Below are positions 6,334 through 10,588 of a stretch of 64,000 bases of DNA, piece by piece. Under the pieces are notes generated by a model. That model made no database searches, was not told the DNA's origin, and saw only the letters and a list, made by a program, of their open reading frames with translations. Position 1 is the stretch's first letter. The number at the start of each line of letters is the position of its first letter. The DNA is from Anaerolineae bacterium. Its GTDB lineage: Bacteria; Chloroflexota; Anaerolineae; Aggregatilineales; Phototrophicaceae. The position numbers were made by a program, and so were the translations under genes. Where the stretch lies: positions 1-64,000 of the forward strand of contig JAJDUC010000079.1 in the NCBI GenBank assembly GCA_022826865.1, written 5' to 3'.

Positions 6334-8044
6334 ATGCCGACATTGGACTTCAAGGGCAAGAATCACATCTACGCCCATCATCTTTCAGTGCCATATCGCC
6401 CGCTTGAAGTGGATGCGTCGCGCTCGGTAAACGGGGGCGAAAGCATACCCCTAACCGACCAAAACCTCATCATCCACGGCGACAATCTGGAAGCGCTGAA
6501 AGCATTGCTGCCGCATTACGCTGGCAAGGTCAAGTGCATCTACATCGACCCGCCCTACAATACTGGAAACGAGGGCTGGGTCTACAACGACAACGTAAAC
6601 AGCCCCATGATGCGGGAATGGTTTGAGAAGCAAAGCCCGGTTGATGGTGAAGATTTGGAGCGCCATGACAAGTGGCTCTGCATGATGTGGCCCCGCTTGC
6701 ATTTGCTGCGAGAGCTGTTGCGAGATGACGGCGTGATATTCGTGAGCATTGATGATAACGAAGTCCATCACCTGCGGATGATGATGGATGAGATATTTGG
6801 GGAGGAGAATTTTGTAGCATGTTTTGTCTGGCAAAGTACAAAATCGATTACAAATCCTGCCTTGGTTTCGGAATCACATACTCATAATCTCGCGTATGCG
6901 AAAAGACTTGATACGATTAAGCAAAATCGAGTCAACTTCAAATTACCTGCAATCGTGACTGGATTTGAAAACCCGGACAAAGATCCAAGAGGACCTTGGA
7001 AAGCAGACCCGTTTGAAGCTGGTGGCAAACGCCCAAATCAAATGTATCCAATTACGAATCCAAACACAGGGCAAGTGTTTTTACCAAAAGATGGAAACTG
7101 TTGGAAAAATGACCTAAATCGATTCAAACTGCTCCTAGCAGATAATAGGATTGTTTTTGGGCGGAGTGGCAAATCCCGCCCTCAGCGAAAGCGTTTTTTG
7201 TCTGAAGCAAAGTCCAGGGGACTTACAGCAAACACATGGTGGGACAACGTTGGCACAAATACTTCTGGGACAAATACACTGACAAATATATTTGGAAGCA
7301 AGGTTTTCACTAATCCCAAACCCGTCGATTTTATCAAACGTGTGCTACAATTAAGCACCCAACCCAACCCAACCCAACCCAAGAACATCCGTTCTGCGCG
7401 AACCCGACATCATTCTCGACTCCTTCGCGGGCAGCGGCACCACCGCTCACGCTGTACTGGCGCTCAACAAAGAAGATGGCGGCCACCGGCGTTTCATCCT
7501 GGTGGAATGTGAAGACTATGCCGACAGCATTACCGCCGAGCGCGTCCGCCGCGTCATCCAGGGCGTGCCGAACGCGAAAGACAAGCAGCTCAAAGCAGGG
7601 CTGGGCGGCAGCTTCGCTTACTGCACGCTGGGCGAGCCGATTGAAATCGACGGCTTGCTCACTGGCAAGCGCTTGCCTGACTTTGCAACGCTTGCCAGCT
7701 ACCTGCTGCACACTGCATCTGGCATTTCCGTCTCGCCGGGCGACTTGAATGCGAACGACGCCCCCCACCCCAAACCCCTCCCCGAACGCCAGTGTCTACG
7801 CGGCGCAGATGAGGGAGGGGCATTTTACTCCACCGAGACAACTGACTATTATCTCATTTATGAGCCGAGCCTGGATTTTCTGCGGGGAGGCGCTGCGGCG
7901 CTCAACCTGGAACGCGCCGAGCGCATCCGCGAGAATGGCCGCCCGGCGGTGGTCTTCGCCGCTGCCACGTATATCAGCCAGAGCGACTTAAGCAAATGGC
8001 ATATCACCTTCTGCCAACTGCCTTATGAACTCCATAATCGCTAA
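6334..8044 (+). CDS. mod: Type III restriction-modification DNA methyltransferase Mod, frameshifted at an (ACCCA)5 tract
   Basis: Frame 1 has YIDPPYNTGNEGWVYNDNV and FVSIDDNEVHHLRMMMDEIFGEENF; frame 2 continues with EPDIILDSFAGSGTTAHAVLALNKEDGGHRRFILVECEDYADSIT and the Mod C-terminus; junction at 7357-7381. Confidence 0.85.
7357..7381 (+). repeat. Simple sequence repeat (ACCCA)x5 inside mod
   Basis: acccaacccaacccaacccaaccca read directly. Confidence 0.95.
7757..7821 (+). repeat. Palindromic GC-rich element inserted in frame in mod
   Basis: ccccccaccccaaacccctcccc...gagggaggggca; encodes APHPKPLPERQCLRGADEGG between canonical Mod segments. Confidence 0.6.
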
Positions 8045-8050
8045 GGAAAC

Positions 8051-8107
8051 TCCCCTTCCCGCATTTTGGGATGCCCGCAATAGAGATTGCGGGAAAGGGG
8101 ATGGGGG
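8051..8107. repeat. Palindromic element at the mod/res junction
   Basis: tccccttcccgca...tgcgggaaaggggatggggg inverted arms plus inner cccgcaatagagattgcggg. Confidence 0.65.
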
Positions 8108-8113
8108 CAAGAA

Positions 8114-10588
8114 TTGGAACTCAAGGAATATCAGGTCAAAGCGCTGGAAGCGTTCGACGATTACTTTGAGGCTTTGACGCGCAACGAGCGGGAAGGTCAA
8201 GAGCAAGCAAAGCGCTATCAAGACGCGGGCTTGCCCATGCCGGAAAATACGCTCGACTTTCCCCGCCAAGCATGGAAAGAACTGGCTGAGGTCGGCAAGG
8301 TGGCTGACCGCAGATATGCCGAGCGCAGCGATGGATTGGGACGACCCATTCCGCACGTCTGCATCAAAGTGCCGACGGGCGGCGGCAAGACCCTGCTCGC
8401 GGCTGAGGCGCTGGGGCGGATTCAGCATCCGACGGGACTTGTGCTGTGGATCGTGCCCACGCGCGCCATCTACCGGCAAACGAAGGGCGCGCTCTGGAAT
8501 CGAGAGCATCCATACCGGCAGCGCCTGGAGCGAGCCAGTGGCGGTCGCGTCAAGATGCTGGAAAAGGACGTCCGCTTCCAGCCGGCCGACATCGCCAATT
8601 ACCTCTGCGTGATGCTCTTGATGTTTCCAGCTGCCAACCGTCAAAAGGGTAAAGAGTTTCTGCGCTTTTTCCGGGATTCAGGACGATACAACGCCTTCTT
8701 TCCCAATAGCGATCACGCTCTTTATGCTGCGGAACTGCTCAAGAAATTCCCGGATCTGGACGCGGAAGACGGTCCCGTCAAACAGAGCCTGTTTAATGTA
8801 ATCAAGATGCAGCGTCCCGTAATCATCTTGGACGAAGCGCATAAGGCATACGGGAAAAAGTTAGAGGGCGCGCAGGATTTCGCCAAGTCCATCAATCGCC
8901 TGAACCCGCGCCTCGTCATTGAGTTTTCCGCCACGCCCAACCCGCAAATCAGCAACCTGCTGGTGGATATCACAGGCGTGGAACTCAAAGCCGAAGAAAT
9001 GATCAAAATGCCGGTGCAGGTAGTCAGCCAGATGAAATCCGACTGGAAGGATACCTTGTCGGCCGCCGAGGCTGAATTGACCAAAATCAACAATGCCGCG
9101 CGGCGCCTGCATCAACAGGAAGACCGATACATCCGTCCCATCGCCGTGGTTCGCGTGGAACGAACCGGGCGCGATCAGCGAGACGGAACTCGTGTTCATG
9201 CGGAAGATGTGCGTGAATACCTGATACAGAACGAAGGCATCTCAACAGAAGCCATTCGCGTCAAATCCGCCGAAAATGATGAATTGGGGCGGGAGGACTT
9301 GCTGTCTGAAACAAGTGAAGTTCGCTGGATCATCACCAAAGCGGCGCTGATGGAAGGCTGGGATTGTCCCTTCGCCTACTTGCTAGTCCTTCTCGACAAT
9401 ACTCGTTCGCAAATCGCCCTGACGCAACTGGTGGGCCGCATCTTGCGCCAACCACATGCCCGGCTCACAGGCGTCGAAGCATTGGATCGCTCTTATGTCT
9501 ATTGCTGGAATCTTGATGTGCTCAAAGCGGTGGATCAAGTGAGACAGGGCTTGCAGGATGAAGGCCTTACCGGCTTGATGGATCAAGTCCAAAGCGCGGA
9601 TGGCGACGACCCCACTCAGCGCAAGATATCTATTCCGAGGCGAGAGGCATTTCGAGAATTTCCCGTCAGCATTCCGAAAGTTTTGCACCAACATCGGGGC
9701 GGCTGGCGCATACTGGATCACCTGCAAGACATTCTGGCGGAAGTGGACTGGAATGAAGTCCGCCTGCCGCCCATACAAATGTATACTCACGAACCGCCGT
9801 ACATGCATCGAGCGGAGGTTGATGTCGACGAAGAAAGTCCATTCTACTCCCCAAAAGAAGAGTTCGATGCCTATGACAAGACGCTGTCCGTTTCCTGGTT
9901 TACGCGGCGGCTTTCCGATATCGTGCCCAACCCCTGGCGGGCGGCTCAATTTGTTATGGAATTGTTCGACCAATTACGCGCTAGCGGACGCTCCGAATCT
10001 GAAATATATTTTAACCGCGCAGGATATGCTGCGCAGCTAAGGGCACACCTGAGCGCTGAATGCAATCGCCTGTGCAAATCGATATATGAACAGAAACTCA
10101 AAGAGGGAATCATTCGTTTTGATTTTTGCGCGGAGCCAAGTTTTAAATTGCCGCCTGCGTTCCCGTTGACAATTGGAGATAAGGACCATACTTTAGAGCG
10201 CGGCGGGATGCCGGTGCAGCTCAGTTTCTTCGACAAAGTTTTCGAGAAACAATTTGATTCGGAATTGGAAAAGGATTTTGCCTTTCACCTGGAAAAACAG
10301 CCGCTCAAATGGTGGCATCGAGTACGGCGGGAGTATTATGTGCTAGGATGGCGCAGTCAGAAAATATACCCTGATTTTGTCACCTTTGCCGACCGGCATT
10401 TTGGCATGTTTGAGACCAAAGGCAATCACCTAAAAAACGAAGATACGATTTATAAGCGCGAAGTATTCGAGCTATTAGAACAGCATTTCAATACCACCGA
10501 ACGCGGGGTTCGCATTGAAAAGCGCGAGAACCGAAAAGGACAATTCCAGATTGTGTATGACTCCAAATTCCCGTCTATAAAAAATTGA
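8114..10588 (+). CDS. res: Type III restriction enzyme Res subunit (helicase/endonuclease)
   Basis: Walker A VPTGGGKTLLA, ILDEAHKAYG, FSATPNPQ, LVGRILRQP; C-terminal YPDFVTFADRHFGMFETKG nuclease-like motif. TTG at 8114 (MELKEYQVKALEAFDDYF) preferred; ORF is open to 8087. Confidence 0.85.
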   Translation: MELKEYQVKALEAFDDYFEALTRNEREGQEQAKRYQDAGLPMPENTLDFPRQAWKELAEVGKVADRRYAERSDGLGRPIPHVCIKVPTGGGKTLLAAEALGRIQHPTGLVLWIVPTRAIYRQTKGALWNREHPYRQRLERASGGRVKMLEKDVRFQPADIANYLCVMLLMFPAANRQKGKEFLRFFRDSGRYNAFFPNSDHALYAAELLKKFPDLDAEDGPVKQSLFNVIKMQRPVIILDEAHKAYGKKLEGAQDFAKSINRLNPRLVIEFSATPNPQISNLLVDITGVELKAEEMIKMPVQVVSQMKSDWKDTLSAAEAELTKINNAARRLHQQEDRYIRPIAVVRVERTGRDQRDGTRVHAEDVREYLIQNEGISTEAIRVKSAENDELGREDLLSETSEVRWIITKAALMEGWDCPFAYLLVLLDNTRSQIALTQLVGRILRQPHARLTGVEALDRSYVYCWNLDVLKAVDQVRQGLQDEGLTGLMDQVQSADGDDPTQRKISIPRREAFREFPVSIPKVLHQHRGGWRILDHLQDILAEVDWNEVRLPPIQMYTHEPPYMHRAEVDVDEESPFYSPKEEFDAYDKTLSVSWFTRRLSDIVPNPWRAAQFVMELFDQLRASGRSESEIYFNRAGYAAQLRAHLSAECNRLCKSIYEQKLKEGIIRFDFCAEPSFKLPPAFPLTIGDKDHTLERGGMPVQLSFFDKVFEKQFDSELEKDFAFHLEKQPLKWWHRVRREYYVLGWRSQKIYPDFVTFADRHFGMFETKGNHLKNEDTIYKREVFELLEQHFNTTERGVRIEKRENRKGQFQIVYDSKFPSIKN

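Follow-up and report, generated by a model that had tools for sequence, protein, structure and literature searches.

The type III mod gene at positions 6334-8044 (+) of the window, i.e. of the whole 64,000-nt stretch of Chloroflexota DNA that was analysed, is broken into two reading frames at an (ACCCA)5 array (7357-7381). The best fit to the data is a mod-res type III restriction-modification (R-M) locus with the methyltransferase as a contingency gene, which would be turned on and off via the reading frame by slipped-strand mispairing. We estimate the probability of this reading at about 0.85. More generally, members of this Chloroflexota genus very probably switch such methylases by the gain and loss of repeat units.

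Layout of the mod-res locus

The following features were assigned (positions are those of the window):

6334-7356 (+), N-terminal segment of mod with motif IV (DPPYNTG), FVSIDDN, the target-recognition domain (TRD), and motif X (FTNPKPVDFIKRVLQLST); PADLOC MTase_III PDLC03644, E 5.6e-112, profile positions 1-346
7352-7354 (+), TAA in the C-terminal frame, just 5′ of the array, read from the sequence
7357-7382 (+), (ACCCA)5 array, the proposed switch; a perfect period-5 run of 26 nt, open in all three frames
7381-7395 (+), 15-nt tag AAGAACATCCGTTCT, coding in the C-terminal frame for RTSVL, with which the linker ends; the same letters follow arrays in type IIG-like genes of genome G083
7400-8044 (+), C-terminal part of mod, including SAM motif I (DSFAGSGTT) and read one frame on (+1) from that of the start codon; PDLC03644 profile positions 345-541; under purifying selection
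7510-7512 (+), premature stop, end of the OFF product (392 aa)
7757-7825 (+, approximate borders), in-frame insert in mod of about 16 codons (PHPKPLPERQCLRGAD...), GC-rich and dispersed-repeat-like, not in sister species
8046-8107 (no strand assigned, approximate borders), short palindromic element between the mod stop and the res start, absent from sister species
8087-10588 (+), res, type III restriction subunit, 833-aa ORF, start probably TTG 8114 by homology; Pfam ResIII and DEAD; PADLOC REase_III PDLC03653, E 1e-184

From the ATG at 6334, the N-terminal frame passes through DPPYNTG, FVSIDDN, and the array before it ends at the stop at 7510-7512, yielding 392 aa. The C-terminal frame is open from 7355 to 8044 and holds DSFAGSGTT and the C-terminus. 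A first-pass annotation of this DNA had placed the N-terminal Mod motifs in one frame and FAGSGTT with the C-terminus in the next, with the change of frame at the array (7357-7381). Re-examination of the ORFs showed this description to be exact, and the perfect run was found to reach 7382.

Because the TAA at 7352-7354 adjoins the array in the C-terminal frame, the two frames can be joined only within or just after the array. The array starts only at nt 1024 of mod, away from the 5′ end, which is the usual, though not a strictly defining, place for tracts of this kind; motif X is on its 5′ side and the SAM-binding motif I on its 3′ side. As the two halves of mod match PDLC03644 at positions 1-346 and 345-541, it represents an insertion between neighbouring consensus positions. 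The unit of 5 nt is not a multiple of three, and since none of the three frames has a stop within the array, the array can end translation only via the frame that it hands on. When the gene was rebuilt with different numbers of ACCCA units, 0, 3, 6, 9, and 12 units gave a full-length ORF and 1, 2, 4, 5, 7, 8, 10, and 11 units a truncated one; the assembled copy, with five units, is OFF. The earlier hand calculation, by which five copies are OFF and three or six restore one ORF, was thus reproduced, and the product with six units has 571 aa plus stop, equal to the 572 codons that had been claimed.

The features of a type III mod-res locus are present, i.e. an N6/N4 methyltransferase domain, DPPY before the TRD, and an FxGxG motif I after it, split in two frames. 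Judged by these sequence features, the locus appears to belong to the type III R-M family. The res gene adjoins mod and has a helicase domain (ResIII, DEAD). It is open in six species, with 832-845 aa; in G064, a long res ORF was not picked up by the ORF script. In sister species, the TGA of mod lies a few bases 5′ of the GTG of res. Short GC-rich palindrome-like inserts such as those at 7757-7825 and 8046-8107 also occur in other genes of the genus.

The solved type III Mods 6k0w, EcoP15I (4zcf), and Mbo45V (7dsu) are sequence relatives of the window Mod and have the same order of motifs. Unlike the window mod, the aligned chain of 6k0w carries no insert at the repeat site, where it has a gap in the alignment. 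In an AlphaFold model of the in-frame Mod of G083 (mean pLDDT 58; only the better C-part was used), the repeat-encoded residues 368-378 form an unstructured loop that leads from helix 354-365 to strand 382-386. In the model of this ON relative, the array site falls in a disordered loop between the motif X helix and the motif I strand.

Arrays in mod and type IIG-like genes of the genus

For comparison, one genome per species was used, with the genome of the window as G000. The homologous C-part of mod is present in 8 of the 34 genomes of the genus, the window's included. Besides G000, the gene is OFF in G078, which has (AGCCC)17 at the same codon site, and in G075, which has (CACAA)14 there. 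It is ON in G083, with a run of C14 at this site, in G064, with two ACCCA units and flanks nearly identical to those of the window (CGTGTGCTACARTTAAGC), and in G079 and G093, which have no repeat at the site. The frame shift needed for a full Mod is +1 in G000 and -1 in G078 and G075. The comparison of orthologs for repeat number, which the first-pass annotation had proposed as a check, thus yielded four more mod genes of the same genus with a repeat at the site, of other lengths or units, and in both states. The arrays are homogeneous and their units differ by species, which implies ongoing expansion and contraction.

The identity between species is 76-97% for the N-part, 14-34% for the TRD, and 70-86% for the C-part. 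On its 3′ side, the exchanged TRD is joined to the part with SAM motif I, and the array occupies this joint, so that one on/off device would be common to unrelated TRDs.

(ACCCA)5 scores best among the short-unit arrays of the window, where an exact scan found no other. The tract searches in genomes were made with chosen patterns. Three ACCCA units occur once in the 4,085,682-bp genome (pattern search), at the array of the window, and the number of period-5 runs of at least 26 nt expected by chance in 4.09 Mb is about 1e-6. Five units of the pattern [CG][AC]CA[AG] were matched in 4 of 154 genomes of the order, all of the same genus, and all of the matches lie in DNA methyltransferase genes: three species have them in mod, and G083 has them at three type IIG-like loci. 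A homogeneous array plus AAGAAC was not found outside the window genome in a scan of 399 genomes of the phylum, a sample without the other array-bearing members of the genus. No array was present near motif I in 72 mod homologs from other taxa, the sole matches being two A8 runs. Many of the more distant mod homologs stem from MAGs with names that we take to be those of sponge-associated organisms.

The type IIG-like array loci of G083 are on C25, C41, and C82. C25 and C41 are weakly matched by PADLOC PDLC03613, and C82 is their homolog. As assembled, the ORFs comprise only the recognition and the C-terminal part, and the genes may be incomplete. In both C41 and C82, which are OFF, the array is followed by the exact tag of the window, and this tag reads PRTSV in the downstream frame. 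C82 reads LPVLPPHTY-K(PSQAK)n-PRTSV-LLDFI, compared with LPVIPPHTY-TPALLDFI in repeat-free relatives. C25 (L145) and C41 (L146) have a common 5′ flank, different TRDs, and the same kind of array at the end, as would be expected of two TRD alleles or of a duplication. A further type IIG-like ORF of G083 (C72; L184) is split at G18, on the 5′ side of the recognition part.

Because the 15 nt directly after the arrays are identical and the unit types are common to both gene classes, mod and the type IIG-like genes may carry one cassette. It is possible, though doubtful, that array and tag make up a portable cassette for switching. Within a single Chloroflexota genus, this cassette would have spread to methyltransferase families that are unrelated (type III Mod and type IIG-like). 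Placed each time at the 3′ joint of the TRD, it would turn the gene on and off via the frame and also be the joint at which TRDs are exchanged. Given the common tag, one may ask by what route a switch passes from one gene to an unrelated one. A role for the tag alone was rejected: 13 other genomes of the class have exact copies of it, but these are scattered, little more frequent than those of a reversed-pattern control, and in no case beside an array. Several of these copies are presumably at the start of mraZ or in promoter-like stretches similar to SOS/LexA-type boxes. Promoter-like stretches with exact AAGAACATCYGTTCT, likewise similar to such boxes, were seen in other genomes of the class (L164, L168, L170, and L174), and the mod tag has the same inverted repeat.

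Explanations of the frame break

According to the switch reading, slipped-strand mispairing would insert or delete 5-nt units in the mod array. With 3n units, the half with the TRD and motif X and the half with motif I would be made as one protein, connected by a flexible (PNPTQ)n-PRTSV linker, and Mod would be ON. With any other number, translation would end early, motif I would not be made, and Mod would be absent (OFF). Type III Res does not cut without Mod, so the OFF state would be safe. By analogy with known systems such as ModS (PMC6265453) and MmyCI (PMC3498834), we infer that slippage would lead to switching within populations, to a loss of methylation in the OFF state, and to effects on expression, as of a regulon, or on phage defence. 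The array of the window, with five units, is short, and its slippage is presumably low. Two structural causes of slippage were rejected: a hairpin, with only -3 kcal/mol, and, as a general cause, a G-quadruplex, which the complement (TTGGG)5 could form but which CACAA and GCCAA arrays would not be expected to form likewise.

All five frame-readable pentamer arrays (three in mod, two in type IIG-like genes) are OFF. The probability of this is (2/3)^5 = 0.13 if the phase is random, and the switch reading leaves it unexplained. It would fit a fixed inactivation, in which the array expanded once, mod became a pseudogene, and the repeat is debris. The window copy has further traits compatible with this explanation, i.e. 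the two palindrome-like inserts at 7757-7825 and 8046-8107, which could be early decay, and a change of N to H at one otherwise invariant residue of the C-part. Nevertheless, we regard fixed inactivation as improbable. The dN/dS values of the C-part between OFF copies are 0.233, 0.212, and 0.180, inside the range of 0.069-0.235 of the remaining pairs (Nei-Gojobori; the synonymous sites are partly saturated). Over about 195-211 codons 3′ of the array, no copy has a stop or a frameshift, and the C-part of G000 keeps 133 of the 135 residues that are invariant across 11 in-frame homologs. In addition, independent dead genes would not retain homogeneous arrays with differing units at one codon site, and the copy with poly-C at this site is ON. 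These comparisons argue that the mod segment 3′ of the frameshift is under purifying selection and that mod is probably kept for use although the assembled copy is OFF. It is possible that mod was permanently lost only very recently.

Another proposal is that the array is mainly a recombination joint for the exchange of TRDs and that its effect on the frame is secondary. The identities of the N-part, TRD, and C-part, with the array at the 3′ joint, the recurrence of array and 15-nt tag in the type IIG-like genes, and the C25/C41 pair of G083 favour such a role. As the sole or main function it is unlikely, because the TRDs of G079 and G093 were exchanged without an array and because frame-breaking 5-nt units are needless for a pure joint. 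The joint and the switch are compatible and do not exclude one another.

An assembly or base-calling error could hide a true array of 3n units, or an error of 1 nt could break the frame; the genome is a draft of 131 contigs, assemblies fail at repeats, and one array of a sister species extends past the end of its contig. However, with only 26 nt the array of the window is shorter than any read, and the contig around it measures 110 kb. The OFF state is seen in three independent assemblies, with different units and in both of the possible wrong frames, and different repeat units would not arise from collapse. An error is therefore very improbable. Programmed ribosomal frameshifting on the repeat could produce the full protein without a change of the DNA, since long CCCAA/CCCAG runs could be slippery and the C-terminal frame opens right after the TAA. 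In contrast, the unit sequence is not conserved, sister copies are in frame at the same site without a shift, and the opposite directions of the required shifts (+1 in G000; -1 in G078 and G075) mean that a single programmed frameshift cannot explain the OFF copies. On the basis of these opposite directions, programmed frameshifting was rejected, with hardly any probability left for it.

Known systems and further tracts

Phase-variable methyltransferases of several bacteria resemble the proposed switch. The mod genes with SSRs of H. influenzae, Neisseria, H. pylori, and M. catarrhalis are switched by changes of length, as proposed here; such genes and their phasevarions have been studied mostly in host-adapted pathogens (PMC7394358), in contrast to the Chloroflexota host of the window. 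The value given for type III mod genes with SSRs in REBASE is 17.4% (PMC7394358). ModS of Streptococcus suis is likewise a type III mod with a pentanucleotide, GAGCA(n), in the ORF and frame-based ON/OFF states, and its alleles have conserved N- and C-parts and an exchanged central TRD (PMC6265453), as in the window mod. The ModS tract occupies the 5′ end of its gene, and switching was shown by fragment analysis (PMC6265453); the array of the window mod is in the middle of the gene, between TRD/motif X and motif I, and switching is predicted from the sequence. The MmyCI mod of Mycoplasma mycoides, AG(n), is also a type III mod with an adjacent res and a repeat within the coding region. It is OFF with AG12 and ON with AG10, and its wrong frames stop after the repeat, as in the window (PMC3498834). 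Its repeat is a dinucleotide that starts at nt 320, before the C-terminal motif I region, with one unit type across species (PMC3498834), whereas the genus of the window has units that differ by species. The type IIG restriction-methyltransferase of Campylobacter jejuni is phase-variable (PMC4889913) and comparable with the type IIG-like genes of G083, which, unlike it, have pentamer arrays and the 15-nt tag of mod.

The first-pass annotation had proposed phase variation in an environmental lineage. The orthologs and the coding constraint support the switch itself; an environmental host is not by itself a novelty, because type III mod genes with SSRs have already been noted in commensal and environmental organisms (PMC7394358). 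That annotation did not mention that the array is in the middle of the gene at the TRD joint, that type IIG-like genes carry such a cassette, or that the genome has other tract-bearing methylases. In open-licence papers, which are weak evidence of novelty, we found neither a report of phase variation for Chloroflexota or sponge symbionts nor a cassette common to SSR-bearing type III mod genes and another methyltransferase class. As far as this literature goes, what is new is the taxon, together with the location of the array at the TRD joint, the turnover of units at a single site, and the cassette common to two enzyme classes. One uncultured Chloroflexota genus has phase-variation candidates of the type III, type IIG-like, and Dam types, with the putative type III and type IIG-like switch at the seam of specificity exchange. 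If the switching is true, bet-hedging of methylation or phage defence in uncultured bacteria is testable from existing metagenome reads.

The Dam-type candidate is a D12 (Dam-type) DNA adenine methylase gene of the window genome, which is split at G12 (G000:C123, 70860-70871; L239). Its orthologs have G12 and are OFF in G069 (L206), and have G13, are in frame, and are ON in G081 (L217). C/G runs of at least 14 occur in 29 of the 34 genomes of the genus, compared with 15 of 64 other genomes of the family, and some of the runs counted are at contig ends and may be sequencing artefacts. In several species, poly-C/poly-G tracts, mostly non-coding, lie beside a common GTATACATACTGTATCTATAC-like sequence (L207, L210, and L216; L213 has a variant). 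Two further tracts were seen in the window genome. A gene for an N-6 DNA methylase (N6_Mtase, PF02384) has C12 near its apparent end (G000:C39:216-227; L235). An ORF split at C11, with a signal-peptide-like start and an fn3-like domain in different frames (G000:C75:1102-1112; L237), is a candidate for a phase-variable surface protein.
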